This document shows positions 24,549-30,174 of a stretch of 64,000 nucleotides of DNA, in pieces (position 1 is the first letter of the stretch; each line of letters starts with the position of its first letter). The position numbers were made by a program, and so were the translations under genes. The DNA is from Hypnocyclicus thermotrophus (GTDB taxonomy: Bacteria > Fusobacteriota > Fusobacteriia > Fusobacteriales > Fusobacteriaceae): NCBI RefSeq assembly GCF_004365575.1, contig NZ_SOBG01000002.1, forward strand, positions 1 through 64,000, given 5' to 3'. The notes beneath the pieces are model-generated. The model ran no database searches. It saw nothing but the letters and a program-made list of their open reading frames with translations, and was not told the DNA's origin.

Positions 24549-25931
24549 TTAAAATTTATATATAAAATTTGCTGCTAAGTAATCATTAGTGTCAAAATCA
24601 CCAAATGTAGTTCCTGAATCACCTTCAAAGATTTTATACATTACTTTAAAGCTAGTATCATCTTTTACTTTAAATTCTATTTGGTTATTTAACATATAAT
24701 CTTTATCTTCTATATTATATACAACTTGTATTTCAGGTAAAACTCTTTCGTTTTTAAATTTATCAGATATTTTTGCAATAAGAGTATTAGCAAAATTATC
24801 ATTATCTAAATTTTGAGTATACTCAGTTTTAACTTGCACATTAACATTGATGTTATGCAATGCTAAATCTTTGTCTCCACCAATAATAGATTTTACTTGG
24901 TTATTACTATCTTCTATATTATAGTAAGCTAATTCAGCTCTTGAATTTATTCCAAATAATACAGTAGAAAGTTCTGTTCCAATAACATCATATTTTTTGT
25001 ACTTAATATCTATATTTTTTATAGTAGATAATATTGCAGAATCAGGAAGATTACTCAATGATGAAAGAGTTGAAGTTTCTAATTCACTACCATTCATATA
25101 AAATGAAGCAGTTTTCTCGACTCCATGGTAATAAGAAATGCCATAATCATATCCATTTTTACTATTTGTATATCTTATACCAACTTGACCATTTTCAGCG
25201 ATATTATCACCATAGATTTTATTTTTTAAATTAGATATAGCAGAATATAATTCTAAATTTTTAGTAGCAATTGTTTCTAAACTTGTTTCTAAGTTTAATT
25301 GAGTTGAAGTTTTCCACAAATCATTATCAGCTAATTTAGTTGTAGTAGTCTTTGGTGCATATACGAATTCAAGATTTCCGTTTCCAATATAATAATTTAC
25401 TTGTACTAAATTTTCTGGTATTTTTCTATCTAAATAATCAGGGTTTATTATATCGCTCATATCTTCAGCATTAAAATTGTCTATTACATGTACTTTATCG
25501 CCTTTTCCCCAAACTAATTTAGTTTTTCCGACTAAAACATCATAATTATCATAGTAAAGTCTAAATGTTGCTTCATCAATTTTTACCATTTCGTCTCTAC
25601 TATCATATAAGAAATTAGCTTTCAATTCAGAATTAGCTTTACTTACTTTCAATTCTGTTTTAAATTTTTGATAATCATCTATATTTAATTCATTATCTTT
25701 AATATTTTTAATTCCTTGAGTAATTATTCTATTTATTAAGTTTAATTCTCCATTAAATTCAAAATCTAATTTATTTGCATCTTCAGTTACAAAGGCATTG
25801 TCTGAAAAATCAGCTGAATCAGAAAAAGCACTATCAAATCCAGAGTCAGTAGTATCAAAACCATCATCAAATGCAAAAGAATTTATTGATAAAAGAGATA
25901 TTAAACTAAGTAATAAGAATTTTTTTTTCAT
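24549..25931 (-). CDS. Outer-membrane beta-barrel protein of an RND/LolA-like operon
   Basis: The 460-residue protein has a signal peptide (about 1-20, ending NSFA) and an Asp/Ser/Phe-rich low-complexity segment at 21-50. The rest is a beta-rich region with alternating strands and a terminal Phe-Ile-Tyr-Lys-Phe, typical of outer-membrane barrels. The block GKTKLVWGKGDKVHVIDNFN resembles DUF1302-type porins that occur beside MMPL/RND transporters and LolA-like proteins. It is probably the outer-membrane channel or acceptor of the system encoded upstream. It is the last gene of the operon. Family assignment rests on motif resemblance and context. Confidence 0.78.
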   Translation of the reverse strand: MKKKFLLLSLISLLSINSFAFDDGFDTTDSGFDSAFSDSADFSDNAFVTEDANKLDFEFNGELNLINRIITQGIKNIKDNELNIDDYQKFKTELKVSKANSELKANFLYDSRDEMVKIDEATFRLYYDNYDVLVGKTKLVWGKGDKVHVIDNFNAEDMSDIINPDYLDRKIPENLVQVNYYIGNGNLEFVYAPKTTTTKLADNDLWKTSTQLNLETSLETIATKNLELYSAISNLKNKIYGDNIAENGQVGIRYTNSKNGYDYGISYYHGVEKTASFYMNGSELETSTLSSLSNLPDSAILSTIKNIDIKYKKYDVIGTELSTVLFGINSRAELAYYNIEDSNNQVKSIIGGDKDLALHNINVNVQVKTEYTQNLDNDNFANTLIAKISDKFKNERVLPEIQVVYNIEDKDYMLNNQIEFKVKDDTSFKVMYKIFEGDSGTTFGDFDTNDYLAANFIYKF

Positions 25932-25977: not shown

Positions 25978-26775
25978 TTATCTTCCAGTTTTTAAATATT
26001 TTTGTGTAAATCTAGCAGGATTAATTGCTTTATTGTATTCAATATAAGGAGAACCAGATTTACTTCTTTTTATATATAATTTAGTTTTATGTCCAGTTTC
26101 TACATTTTCCATAATAGTTTCAAAAATTGTCCATATTCCATTAACTTGTGCTAAATCTTGTTTTACAGTTAATATTTTTTCTATTTTTTTTGTTTTTTTA
26201 CTATAAAGTTCAGCTTTTACAACTATAAAATGTTCTTTACTAACCCAAGAAATTACTTTATCATATTGAGAATCTTCAGAATTTTTTGCTTTTGATTCGA
26301 TTACATAACAATCATAATTTCCTAATTTTTCTTCTCTTAGTAATTTATGATTATCTTCTTCAACATCTCTAGTTTCCATGTCATCATAAGTAAAATCAGA
26401 ACCCATAAAAGAACTACTTCCTTCAGAAGATGATATTCTTCTTACTCTTTTTAATGCAGGTAAATAGATCCATTTGTCATCATCTCTATCTTTGTTTTCT
26501 ACTTGTAAAAATCTAGTGTTTTTAACAGATGCAGGAGCTTTAAAAACCATTATACTTCTCGATAAGTCATTAGCTTCATCATAAGTTTCACCCCATACTT
26601 CAATTGTTCTAGGATTTACAGTACCGTCTTTGTCTATTAAATCCATTCCCATTAAGGCATGTAAAGTTTTACCAGTATCTCTATCTTTTACAGCTTGCAT
26701 AATTTCTTTCCCTGTCATAGAGAATGCTGATAAAGACATAACTACAATTAATAAACCAACTAAAATTTTTTTCAT
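25978..26775 (-). CDS. LolA-like periplasmic outer-membrane lipoprotein-sorting protein
   Basis: The 265-residue protein has a signal peptide (about 1-20) and the sequence pattern of the LolA-like family found beside RND transporters: a domain with KAPASVKNTRFLQVE, the aromatic IYLPALKRVRRIS strand, a GSDFTYDDMETRD loop and a YVIES...WVSKEHFIV repeat. LolA folds carry lipids or acyl chains in a hydrophobic half-barrel across the periplasm. It sits between the transporter and barrel genes, so a shuttle role is the natural inference. Its mRNA begins after an intercistronic hairpin. GGAGG lies just before the ATG. Confidence 0.83.
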   Translation of the reverse strand: MKKILVGLLIVVMSLSAFSMTGKEIMQAVKDRDTGKTLHALMGMDLIDKDGTVNPRTIEVWGETYDEANDLSRSIMVFKAPASVKNTRFLQVENKDRDDDKWIYLPALKRVRRISSSEGSSSFMGSDFTYDDMETRDVEEDNHKLLREEKLGNYDCYVIESKAKNSEDSQYDKVISWVSKEHFIVVKAELYSKKTKKIEKILTVKQDLAQVNGIWTIFETIMENVETGHKTKLYIKRSKSGSPYIEYNKAINPARFTQKYLKTGR

Positions 26776-26860: not shown

Positions 26861-29482
26861 TTATTTACTTATAAACTTAGGCTTAAATAAATTAAGTAAT
26901 GCAGGTAACACAGTCATTGATGCTGCAGATGAAGTAATCATAGTAAGACTTATTAATAACCCTAAATTAACAAGAGGTACAAAGTTTGAGAATAATAATA
27001 CTGCAAATCCACCCGCAACTGAAATAGCATTAAAGATAATTGCTTTACCAGAAGTAATCAAGGTATTTTTTGTTACGATTTCTAGATCATCACTTCTTTT
27101 TCTTTCATAATTATATGTAGATAAGAAGTGAATAGTATAATCAACACCTATACCAATTGCTATAGACGCTACCATAGCAGTACCTAAGTCAAGTTTTATA
27201 CCAAAATATCCCATTAATCCAAAATTAATAAGAAGTGATAGAGTAAGAGGGATTATTCCATAAATACCAGCAATTATTGATTTATATGAGAACGCAACAA
27301 TTATAAATACTATTATTAAAGAAGAAATTATACTCATAATTTGGCTCGATACAATTAAATCATTTACAGCAGATGACATATCAGCATGTCCAGCAACATT
27401 TATTGTATAACCTTTAGGGAAATTAGCTGCAGCATAATCTTTTATTGCTTTTTCTACTTTTTTAGTATAAATATTACTTCCTGTTTTTAACTGTATAATC
27501 ATTCTTGCTTTTGAAGGTTCTAGTTGATCATTAATGTAGTCATCTAAACTCCCTGAATAAAGAAGTAAATATTGAGAAATAAGGTTTTTAAGTTCATCTC
27601 TATTTGCTGCCATATATTTTTTAGGATTATAAGGGATTTCATTATATGAAGCACCTTTATAATTTAATTCTTTATTAATTACTTCCACTAGTTCCTCGGC
27701 AGTTAGATTAAGTTTATCAGAGTGTAAAATAGCGTTATTTATAACTTTAATAACATCATTTGCAGTTTTTATCTTTGGTGTTTTATTTTCTATAGTAGTA
27801 GTAGTTTTTTCTGATTGAGAATTATCAGTAAATGAATCATCACCAAAACTATTATCCTCAGTAAATGAGTCATTACTAAAACCATCATCTACAAATCCAA
27901 CATCTAAATCTGAATCAGAAGTTGAATCAGAAATTATTTCTTCATCTTCTTGAGGATAATTCATAACTTGGTTCATTCTTTTTAAGAAGTCAGCGAATGA
28001 AGTAACTTCCCCTACTTTAGAATAATTATATTTTAAAAATTTTTTTAAATTATCCATTTCTTTTAAAATTTCAGGATTTGTTAAATCACCTTTATTTTTA
28101 CCTTCGATTAAGATGTCCAATACTGTAGTTCCATTAAAAGTAGAACTTAGATATTTATCAGAAACTCTTATTTCAGAACTAGGTTTAAACATTTCAATTA
28201 ATGGACCGTCAACTATTATTTTTGACATTCCAATTATAGAAATAACAATTATTATTAATGAAAGAGATAAAACTCTTATTATTTTTCTACCAAAATAATG
28301 ATAAAAACCAATTAAAATTTTTGTAATTAATCCATCATCAACATCATCATCATCAGAAATTTTTAAACTATTATGTCTTACTAATAAAAGAGCAGGAATA
28401 AGTAATACCGCAACAATAAGAGCGACTAATACTCCAACAGCTGTAAATATACCAAAATGTTTTATGGGAACAATACTACTTGTAGCTAATGAAGCAAATC
28501 CAGCAATAGTAGTAACCCCTGCTAAGAATACAGGTTTACCAACTTTATGTACAGTTTCAACTACAAGCTCTCTATGTTTAGCTTCTGATAATTGAGATTT
28601 TTCTTTTTTTAAATCATCATAATAGTGACTTATAATATGTATTCCATAAGCACTACCTACAGCCACTAAAAGTACTGGAATAACAGTTGACACCATAGTT
28701 AAATTAATATTTAACATTGCCATAAGTCCAATAGTCCATATAGTACTTACAAGTACAGTAATAAGTGGTAATAAAACGCCACTAAGATTTTTAAATGATA
28801 AATATAATGATAATACTACAACAAGGACAACAAATGGAATAAGTCTACTCATGTCTTGTCTCATATATTCACCAAGTAATACAGTAATAACAGGAGTACC
28901 CGCTACATAATAATCCATAGTTGGATTATTGTATTTATTTAATACATCTTTAATATCATAATAAATTTTTTCTTTTTCTTCTATTGATAATCCCTTTTTT
29001 AATTTTATTAAAATTTGAGTAGATTTTAAATCATCAGAATATAAATTTCCTTTATAAATTTTCCAACTTAATAATTTTTCTTTTACCATATTTAACTCAG
29101 TTTCTGTTTTAGGAATTTCTTTAGCAATTTCTCCTACTTTCATTCCTTCAGCAGTACCTTCAATAAAATCAGTATTAGTAAGCCCTGTTACATCTTCAAC
29201 ATTATTAATTTTTTCAAGATCTTTGATTAATTTGTTAATTAATTCAAGATTTTTAATTGTAATAATAGAACTTGTTTTACTTTTAATACCGATTGCCATA
29301 GCATCAGTACTACCAAATATATCTTCCAATCTATTTTTGGTTATTCTTGAGATATGATTTTCTGGCAAGAAAATTTCAACTTCATTATTAATTTTTATTT
29401 TAGGTAATTGCCAAGAAAAAAATCCTGTCATAGCAACTATAAATATTATAATTAGCCATGGTTTTTTAAAAAATGTGTTCAT
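26861..29482 (-). CDS. MMPL/RND-family transporter
   Basis: The 873-residue inner-membrane protein has the two-fold RND plan: one membrane helix at about 8-25, a periplasmic loop (30-212), five helices (about 213-370), a sixth helix at 402-420, a second periplasmic loop (425-715) and five closing helices (715-868). Conserved blocks include GVDYTIHFLS and VGSAYGIHIISHYYDD, typical of MMPL/HpnN-like lipid exporters. The second loop contains an Asp/Ser/Phe-rich segment at 513-556 resembling that at the start of the barrel protein. No adaptor (MFP) gene is present; the LolA-like and barrel genes follow instead. Lipid or hydrophobic-compound export to the outer membrane is inferred. Confidence 0.88.
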   Translation of the reverse strand: MNTFFKKPWLIIIFIVAMTGFFSWQLPKIKINNEVEIFLPENHISRITKNRLEDIFGSTDAMAIGIKSKTSSIITIKNLELINKLIKDLEKINNVEDVTGLTNTDFIEGTAEGMKVGEIAKEIPKTETELNMVKEKLLSWKIYKGNLYSDDLKSTQILIKLKKGLSIEEKEKIYYDIKDVLNKYNNPTMDYYVAGTPVITVLLGEYMRQDMSRLIPFVVLVVVLSLYLSFKNLSGVLLPLITVLVSTIWTIGLMAMLNINLTMVSTVIPVLLVAVGSAYGIHIISHYYDDLKKEKSQLSEAKHRELVVETVHKVGKPVFLAGVTTIAGFASLATSSIVPIKHFGIFTAVGVLVALIVAVLLIPALLLVRHNSLKISDDDDVDDGLITKILIGFYHYFGRKIIRVLSLSLIIIVISIIGMSKIIVDGPLIEMFKPSSEIRVSDKYLSSTFNGTTVLDILIEGKNKGDLTNPEILKEMDNLKKFLKYNYSKVGEVTSFADFLKRMNQVMNYPQEDEEIISDSTSDSDLDVGFVDDGFSNDSFTEDNSFGDDSFTDNSQSEKTTTTIENKTPKIKTANDVIKVINNAILHSDKLNLTAEELVEVINKELNYKGASYNEIPYNPKKYMAANRDELKNLISQYLLLYSGSLDDYINDQLEPSKARMIIQLKTGSNIYTKKVEKAIKDYAAANFPKGYTINVAGHADMSSAVNDLIVSSQIMSIISSLIIVFIIVAFSYKSIIAGIYGIIPLTLSLLINFGLMGYFGIKLDLGTAMVASIAIGIGVDYTIHFLSTYNYERKRSDDLEIVTKNTLITSGKAIIFNAISVAGGFAVLLFSNFVPLVNLGLLISLTMITSSAASMTVLPALLNLFKPKFISK

Positions 29483-29551: not shown

Positions 29552-29576
29552 TTAAAACTCCTTTACGGAGTTTTAA
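29552..29576 (-). terminator. Hairpin at the end of the first tetR gene
   Basis: A 10-bp stem (TTAAAACTCC with GGAGTTTTAA, 5-nt loop) includes the tetR stop codon in its loop. The following T tract is short, so it may be a partial terminator separating tetR from the transporter operon. Confidence 0.6.
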
Positions 29577-30174
29577 GTAATTTTATTAAATTTTTTACAA
29601 TATAATCACTAGGGAAATCATCATATATATTTTCATTAAACATTAATGCTCTATCAAAACCTAAAATCATATTTATTACAGCAAAAGCTAAAAATTTTGC
29701 ATCTAAATCAGTACGGATGTTTCCTTTAGTTTGTCCTTGAAGAATTAAGTTGTTAGTTTTGTTAATAATTTTTATTTTTATTTCACTTAATAAGTTATGG
29801 ATTAAAGAAGTATCTTTTGTAAAACCTATTTTAAATTCAATTATTTGTTTGTATTTCTTTATGTTTTTATCAGATGTAAAATAATCAAAATATTTTTTAA
29901 CTAATGCTTCAATTTGACATATAGAACTTGTATCTGTTTTAGATATTTCTTCATCTATTTTAGTTAAAAAACTTCCTAGATACATTTCAGTTAGCTCTTT
30001 TAATATATCAAATTTATTTTCAAAATGCCAATAAATAGCACCTCTAGTTAAATTTGCTTTTTTTGCGATATTATTTAAAGTAGCGGTTTCATAACTTTTT
30101 TCTAAAAAAACATCTAATGCAGCTTCTAAAATAGCTTGTTTGGTTTTATCAGCGTCTTCTTTTGTTTTTCTCAT
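29563..30174 (-). CDS. TetR/AcrR-family repressor of the RND operon
   Basis: The 203-residue regulator has an N-terminal TetR helix-turn-helix (about 28-50, LNNIAKKANLTRGAIYWHF) with the classic AcrR/TtgR-type recognition helix, and a helical ligand-binding domain. The gene lies directly upstream of the transporter gene on the same strand. A perfect 14-bp palindrome sits between its own -35 and -10 boxes and a related site precedes the transporter, so it very probably represses both itself and the operon until a ligand binds. The ligand is unknown and may be the transported compound. Confidence 0.88.
   Translation of the reverse strand: MRKTKEDADKTKQAILEAALDVFLEKSYETATLNNIAKKANLTRGAIYWHFENKFDILKELTEMYLGSFLTKIDEEISKTDTSSICQIEALVKKYFDYFTSDKNIKKYKQIIEFKIGFTKDTSLIHNLLSEIKIKIINKTNNLILQGQTKGNIRTDLDAKFLAFAVINMILGFDRALMFNENIYDDFPSDYIVKNLIKLLKTP

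Follow-up and report, generated by a model that had tools for sequence, protein, structure and literature searches.

A shared acidic-aromatic motif in the RND pump and the predicted outer-membrane barrel of LolA-like operons changes in parallel in both proteins

In an operon of Hypnocyclicus thermotrophus, an RND-type inner-membrane pump and a predicted outer-membrane barrel protein carry the same short motif of acidic and aromatic residues, referred to here as the tag. Within the portion of the genome that was sampled, the tag is limited to these two proteins; across homologous operons, it changes in parallel in both, and the likeness is kept up at the peptide level. This parallel change suggests that the two copies may act as one address label, read at both ends by a shuttle between the membranes. 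Judged from comparative sequence data, the reading that is somewhat favored is that pump and barrel each dock to the same periplasmic partner, one specific to the system and most probably the LolA-like carrier of the operon.

Results

The window analyzed here is the stretch of 64,000 nucleotides at positions 1 to 64,000 of contig NZ_SOBG01000002.1, and the features of interest are listed in Table 1. The pump scores 178 bits against PF03176 (MMPL; cutoff, 20.5) in two stretches, placing it in the MMPL/RND superfamily, and 268 bits against the HAE3 model TIGR00921, below the cutoff of 351.9; by profile scoring, it is thus a relative of the HAE3 subfamily and a nonmember by this model. The LolA-like protein passes PF17131 (LolA_like) with 209.9 bits (cutoff, 30), weakly matches DUF1329 as well, and has solved relatives with the LolA fold (PDB 9tp6, 4z48, and 3bk5), a fold known to hold hydrophobic cargo. 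Profile searches with the barrel protein returned no Pfam or NCBIfam match, and its fold is a prediction from the features given in Table 1; outside the tag, it is unrelated to the MMPL-family pump, in agreement with the initial annotation. No adaptor (membrane fusion) or TolC-like match was found among the neighbor genes of the pump, which places the locus outside the HAE1-type tripartite pumps, and a TetR-like gene adjoins some of the homologous operons too. Together, the operon products probably move a lipid or another hydrophobic molecule between both membranes, with the protein families pointing to a lipid as the putative cargo.

Table 1. Features of the operon and its tags (positions in the window)
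Feature	Position	Strand	Basis
Predicted outer-membrane barrel protein, 460 aa	24549..25931	(-)	Signal peptide, C-terminal YKF, conserved operon position
Barrel signal peptide, about residues 1-20	25872..25931	(-)	Sequence
Barrel tag, residues 21-50, FDDGFDTTDSGFDSAFSDSADFSDNAFVTE	25782..25871	(-)	Sequence, motif criterion, homologues
LolA-like periplasmic protein (proposed carrier/receptor)	25978..26775	(-)	PF17131; role proposed only
RND (MMPL-type) inner-membrane pump, 873 aa	26861..29482	(-)	Pfam MMPL and TIGR00921 scores
RND residues 574-612, rest of clade-specific insertion, predicted helical	27647..27763	(-)	Insertion comparison and AlphaFold2 model
RND residues 507-573, tag and flanks without predicted secondary structure	27764..27964	(-)	Lowest pLDDT of model
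RND tag core, residues 526-557, LDVGFVDDGFSNDSFTEDNSFGDDSFTDNSQS	27812..27907	(-)	Sequence, motif criterion; insertion absent from short RNDs
TetR-family regulator, upstream of operon	29563..30174	(-)	PF00440, 52.9 bits

The barrel tag directly follows a signal peptide some 20 residues long and so forms the mature N-terminus, while the tag core of the pump, DVGFVDDGFSNDSFTEDNSFGDDSFTDN, starts at residue 527, within residues 513 to 556 (27815-27946), in periplasmic loop 2 between TM-like segments ending near residue 432 and starting near residue 706. Both segments lie where the initial annotation had placed them and have the sequences it gave. They are built of Asp, Ser, Gly, and Phe and have DDGF in common, as it had also noted; the repeated Phe-Xaa-Asp spacing that it ascribed to both proteins is found in the barrel (FDD, FDT, FDS, and FSD), whereas in the pump the acidic residue comes two or three residues past Phe. 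The AlphaFold2 model of the barrel (pLDDT 35 from 3 sequences) was unusable. Since the model of the pump is of low confidence throughout (pLDDT 48 from 4 sequences), the minimum at residues 507 to 573 is at most weakly suggestive of disorder. In the nearest relative, a metagenome-assembled genome (L001, 7822-8245), the barrel gene ends within the tag, where the reading frame shifts after DDGFDTTDSG and then meets a stop; this break may be genuine or may stem from misassembly of the repeat.

To delimit the tag, a segment of 20 residues was required to contain at least three Phe or Trp, at least four acidic residues, and at most two residues other than F, W, D, E, G, S, N, and T. In a 464-kb sample comprising 399 ORFs, including 95 whose start resembles a signal peptide or a TM segment, the pump and the barrel alone contain a stretch of this composition, an exclusivity that applies to the sampled part because this amounts to 21% of the genome. 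Among shuffled sequences, 3 of 2000 (pump) and 22 of 2000 (barrel) yielded one, which speaks against a chance occurrence; a similarity search with the tag, insensitive to low complexity, returned the tag itself alone. The possibility raised in the initial annotation that the segment is a generic linker of many exported proteins was rejected for this 21%, given that 2 of the 399 ORFs are tagged.

Fusobacteriota, Spirochaetota, and Halanaerobiaeota all include genomes with related operons (loci are designated by L numbers and genomes by G numbers). Tagged pumps carry an insertion that short relatives of about 770 aa lack, and the barrels accompanying short pumps are mostly untagged. The expectation that related operons would have the segment in both proteins, and that it would covary, was borne out: operon by operon, pump and barrel show the same motif, falling into DDWG, DSFFDD, SSFY, SFFEE, and PPLGF classes. 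Thus, the two proteins share SFFEE in L124, DSFFDD in L128-130, DDWGS in L145-147, PPLGF in L150, and repeats of the DFGSDFG type in L154, and SFGEE repeats are paired with FGDDFG in L002. Switches seen in both proteins include F to W (L145-147 and L263-266), FF (L124, L128-130, and L277), FY (G377 and L301), PPLGF (L150), and ELDRELLG (L168). If the tags bound cargo or ions, as acidic-aromatic patches gathering lipid head groups, Ca2+, or substrate, their composition and their presence at both ends of the transport path would be accounted for; such rapid parallel switches among F, W, FF, FY, PPLGF, and ELDRELL fit this idea poorly, however, and it is considered very improbable.

For the 24 operons of this first sample, own pairs were compared with permuted pairings (z = 6.1, p = 5e-5) and with composition-keeping shuffles (Stouffer p = 4e-6). 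Because these operons had been picked by eye for tags, the first sample alone is open to selection, and a second sample was therefore drawn by an RND profile search of 393 Spirochaetota genomes (93 positive) and 249 Halanaerobiaeota genomes (4 positive), with some positives already known. Its 60 new regions yielded 51 RND-barrel pairs, which were subjected to the same kind of test. Nearly every barrel is tagged, and the pairs again correspond: DDWGDSGDDWG with DDWGSD (L263-266), GDFFTEDTS with DDFFDDFATDE (L277), SSFYSDSE with GGFYTTE (L301), and, in both proteins, DSFESDSF (L245, identical), DFGDFGGFD (L246), and GFGFGD (L297). In 36 nonredundant operons, the match of own pairs far exceeds that of swapped ones (z = 8.0), as it also does in 25 operons under a stricter cut (z = 5.6), with p = 1e-5, the permutation floor, in both cases. 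W, FF, and FGF co-occur across the two proteins with Fisher p values of 0.0015, 0.0014, and 4e-5, respectively, descent being ignored. One locus of this sample (L275, 2322-11095; G588) contains the operon in tandem duplicate, with two somewhat different RND tags and two nearly identical barrel tags.

These statistics partly reflect descent, because related operons have a motif class in common. When partners were exchanged, no significant effect was seen between close relatives (disjoint nearest pairs, p = 0.13 and 0.08), the effect was modest at tree distances of at least 0.4 (p = 0.01), and it was clear at distances of at least 0.8 (25 positive and 8 negative, p = 4e-4), with pairs picked greedily so that some may share branches. 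It is thus the motif class, rather than the exact peptide of each species, that changes in step. At this level, the loci show what is expected of a shared docking motif, namely, the same motif in several clients changing together. A phylogenetic pair test of single features, based on few events, was consistent in direction for W, FF, and FGF. Presence or absence of the tag is associated between the two proteins under the strict F/W criterion (Fisher p = 2.6e-5); under a looser criterion, it is noisy and, on the tree, not significant. Exceptions include L126, L167, and L170, in which the own partner matched no better than others, and L140-142, in which the barrel is tagged although the pump has no insertion. 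The barrels of L140, L141, L142, L227, L228, and L233, all from one subclade, have in common an N-terminal motif of the DDYxxLFxD type, which could be a tag for some other reader or the ancestral state.

For pumps without an adjoining barrel gene, the barrel was looked for elsewhere in the same genome. The pump of G377 has SSFYNSTDEEE, and a barrel on a separate contig has SSFYGDE; the unlinked barrels of G220 and G290 start with DEWDDFGSDSDF and QEDFGGFEGGDFGTF, tags of the right kind, yet the own partners do not outscore swapped ones. In a second RND subclade, an insertion in periplasmic loop 1 bears a different motif that is echoed in the barrel: ELDRELLG and ELDRELLS (L168), EDLDKMIL and EDMDAMFL (L183), and LGDFD and LGDFG (L148), with three copies in L175. 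For this group alone, own-pair matching was not significant (6 operons, p = 0.07). The motif also occurs at a further site of loop 2 in L003 and L156, so that it appears portable and free of an exact location in the pump, which fits the docking prediction. Pump insertions are richer in aromatics than barrel tags (median of 7 in 95 residues versus 4 in 26). In L148 (4142-6967), loop 1 has two LGDFD motifs, after which comes an insertion resembling a small beta-rich domain.

Within shared runs of at least five residues, 106 of 185 codons are identical, versus 95.0 expected (standard deviation, 6.4). Codon identity is thus near chance (1.7 standard deviations above expectation), which indicates that the likeness is kept at the peptide level and not through recent DNA copying; segment duplication or gene conversion was rejected on this basis. 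The codon data also count against the least probable of the explanations weighed here, that the tags have no joint function and are low-complexity linkers made alike by genome composition, repeat slippage, or DNA exchange between neighboring genes. Tandem repetition has indeed enlarged some RND tags (L002 and L285), and part of the statistics is due to shared descent, both of which would agree with it; on the other side stand the untagged state of other exported proteins in the sample, the lower scores of composition-keeping shuffles, and the tags of unlinked barrels.

Discussion

In the docking mechanism proposed here, one short acidic-aromatic linear motif would be presented twice, by the loop 2 insertion of the pump and by the mature N-terminus of the barrel, which faces the periplasm. 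Both copies would be read by a single site on a periplasmic partner, for which the LolA-like carrier is the likeliest candidate. The carrier would dock by turns at the pump as presumed donor and at the barrel as presumed acceptor, which is also the putative direction of transport. A single reading site would force the two motifs to change in concert, and a motif that is shared rather than complementary suggests a third site that binds both copies. The LolA-like gene is the partner usually found nearby. In L186 (4789-7881), one ORF of 1031 aa encodes a natural fusion of an RND pump (residues 9-750) with a LolA-like protein (778-1029), separated by a signal-peptide-like segment, and this single fusion is untagged, consistent with the idea that the tag recruits the carrier. 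As a point against the proposal, the LolA-like proteins of tagged systems have no distinct charge compared with others, making charge no marker, and have few specific residues, which are scattered. Mimicry by the tags of the conserved carrier loop SFMGSDFTYDD was also considered and rejected, because the loop is identical in untagged systems and independent of tag class.

The initial annotation had offered two roles for the tags, docking to a common site or a flexible bridge across the periplasm; the former is the best reading of the present data. A direct bridge, in which the pump tag binds the barrel tag or both enter a condensate-like tether, could draw on the identical motif on both sides, its repetition in the pump, and a possible association of aromatic residues. 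Mutual contact is disfavored by the acidity of both tags: in every operon examined, the net charge of the barrel tag over 30 residues lies between -2 and -10, and the pump tags are acidic to a similar degree. A further argument against a bridge is the shortness of the barrel tag, at about 30 residues. Such a bridge is accordingly regarded as improbable.

With docking to a common site retained, the receptor could be another periplasmic factor with its gene at a different locus, for example a scaffold or a chaperone reading aromatic peptides. Any common receptor fits all shared-motif data, several tags contain aromatic-X-aromatic, and peptides of this kind are preferred by SurA-type chaperones. 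A general factor would, however, keep the motif constant in each genome. The motif differs among lineages and among paralogous systems of one genome (DSFFDD versus DDFGDFGNF in G225), which disfavors such a factor, as does the absence of the tag from other exported proteins in the genome sample; this alternative is unlikely, if less so than the others. Sums for own versus swapped partners of paralogous systems within genomes (85/73, 65/57, and 53/52, with G598 left out) are weakly supportive of matching.

This type of cassette is already known from AmeABCD of Castellaniella defragrans (PMC6394551), which comprises the HAE3-lineage RND protein AmeD, the LolA-superfamily DUF1329 protein AmeB, the periplasmic AmeC, and the DUF1302 outer-membrane protein AmeA. 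Compared by description, both combine an HAE3-type RND, a LolA-fold periplasmic protein, and an outer-membrane protein, and the weak DUF1329 match of the LolA-like protein is to the family of AmeB. In contrast, the operon in the window has no AmeC equivalent or second periplasmic gene, and so falls short of the complete cassette, its barrel does not match DUF1302, and the passages of PMC6394551 drawn upon here make no mention of a shared tag.

BstABC sterol transport likewise relies on a lipid RND from the MMPL superfamily, and its periplasmic and outer-membrane steps are separate (PMC10942540); the hopanoid transporter HpnN is another lipid-moving RND of this superfamily. The pump in the window scores 49.7 of 1400 against BstA (NF045600) and 128.7 of 751.85 against HpnN (TIGR03480), placing it in neither equivalog. 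We know of no shared tag in BstABC or HpnN. In the Lol system (LolCDE-LolA-LolB), too, a LolA-fold carrier takes over cargo from a donor in the inner membrane and delivers it to an acceptor in the outer membrane. Docking in that system occurs via folded surfaces and is not known to use a shared linear motif; here, the donor would be an RND pump instead of an ABC transporter, and the acceptor a barrel instead of LolB. LolA-like genes also lie beside MacB-like ABC permease genes, rather than RND genes, in L053, L055, and L056 and in the genome of the window (C1:173704-174273), an arrangement resembling Borrelia BBJ23-29 (PMC13078400).

The 1.1-Mb genome G155 contains a pump (L136), probably Treponema pallidum TP0790, with a tag reduced to the remnant TDDFGVFKTF; a barrel relative was sought in this genome and not found, and the acceptor may have been lost or be too divergent for detection. 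In the published model, TP0790 is an AcrB-like efflux pump assembled together with a MacA-like adaptor and a TolC-like channel (PMC8407342). The LolA-like gene of L136 and the remnant TDDFGVF in the pump loop are features in common with the present operon, and this context points to a LolA-like carrier instead of that assembly; the shared tag offers an alternative reading of a treponemal RND modeled as an AcrB-type pump.

Conclusions

In the literature searched (mainly open access, bioRxiv preprints excluded), neither a shared tag of this kind nor the way in which the LolA-fold carriers of RND-based systems locate donor and acceptor was found described. Through the tag, members of a system can be recognized also where their genes are unlinked (G377, G220, and G290), a comparison of motif classes provides a route to mapping the docking site of the carrier, and the coevolving motif can aid partner prediction from sequence. 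More broadly, the chances appear evenly balanced that these operons represent an envelope transport family in which the donor pump and the acceptor barrel carry a fast-evolving peptide address for a dedicated shuttle, the code of which would diverge between lineages and paralogous systems and so separate parallel routes.
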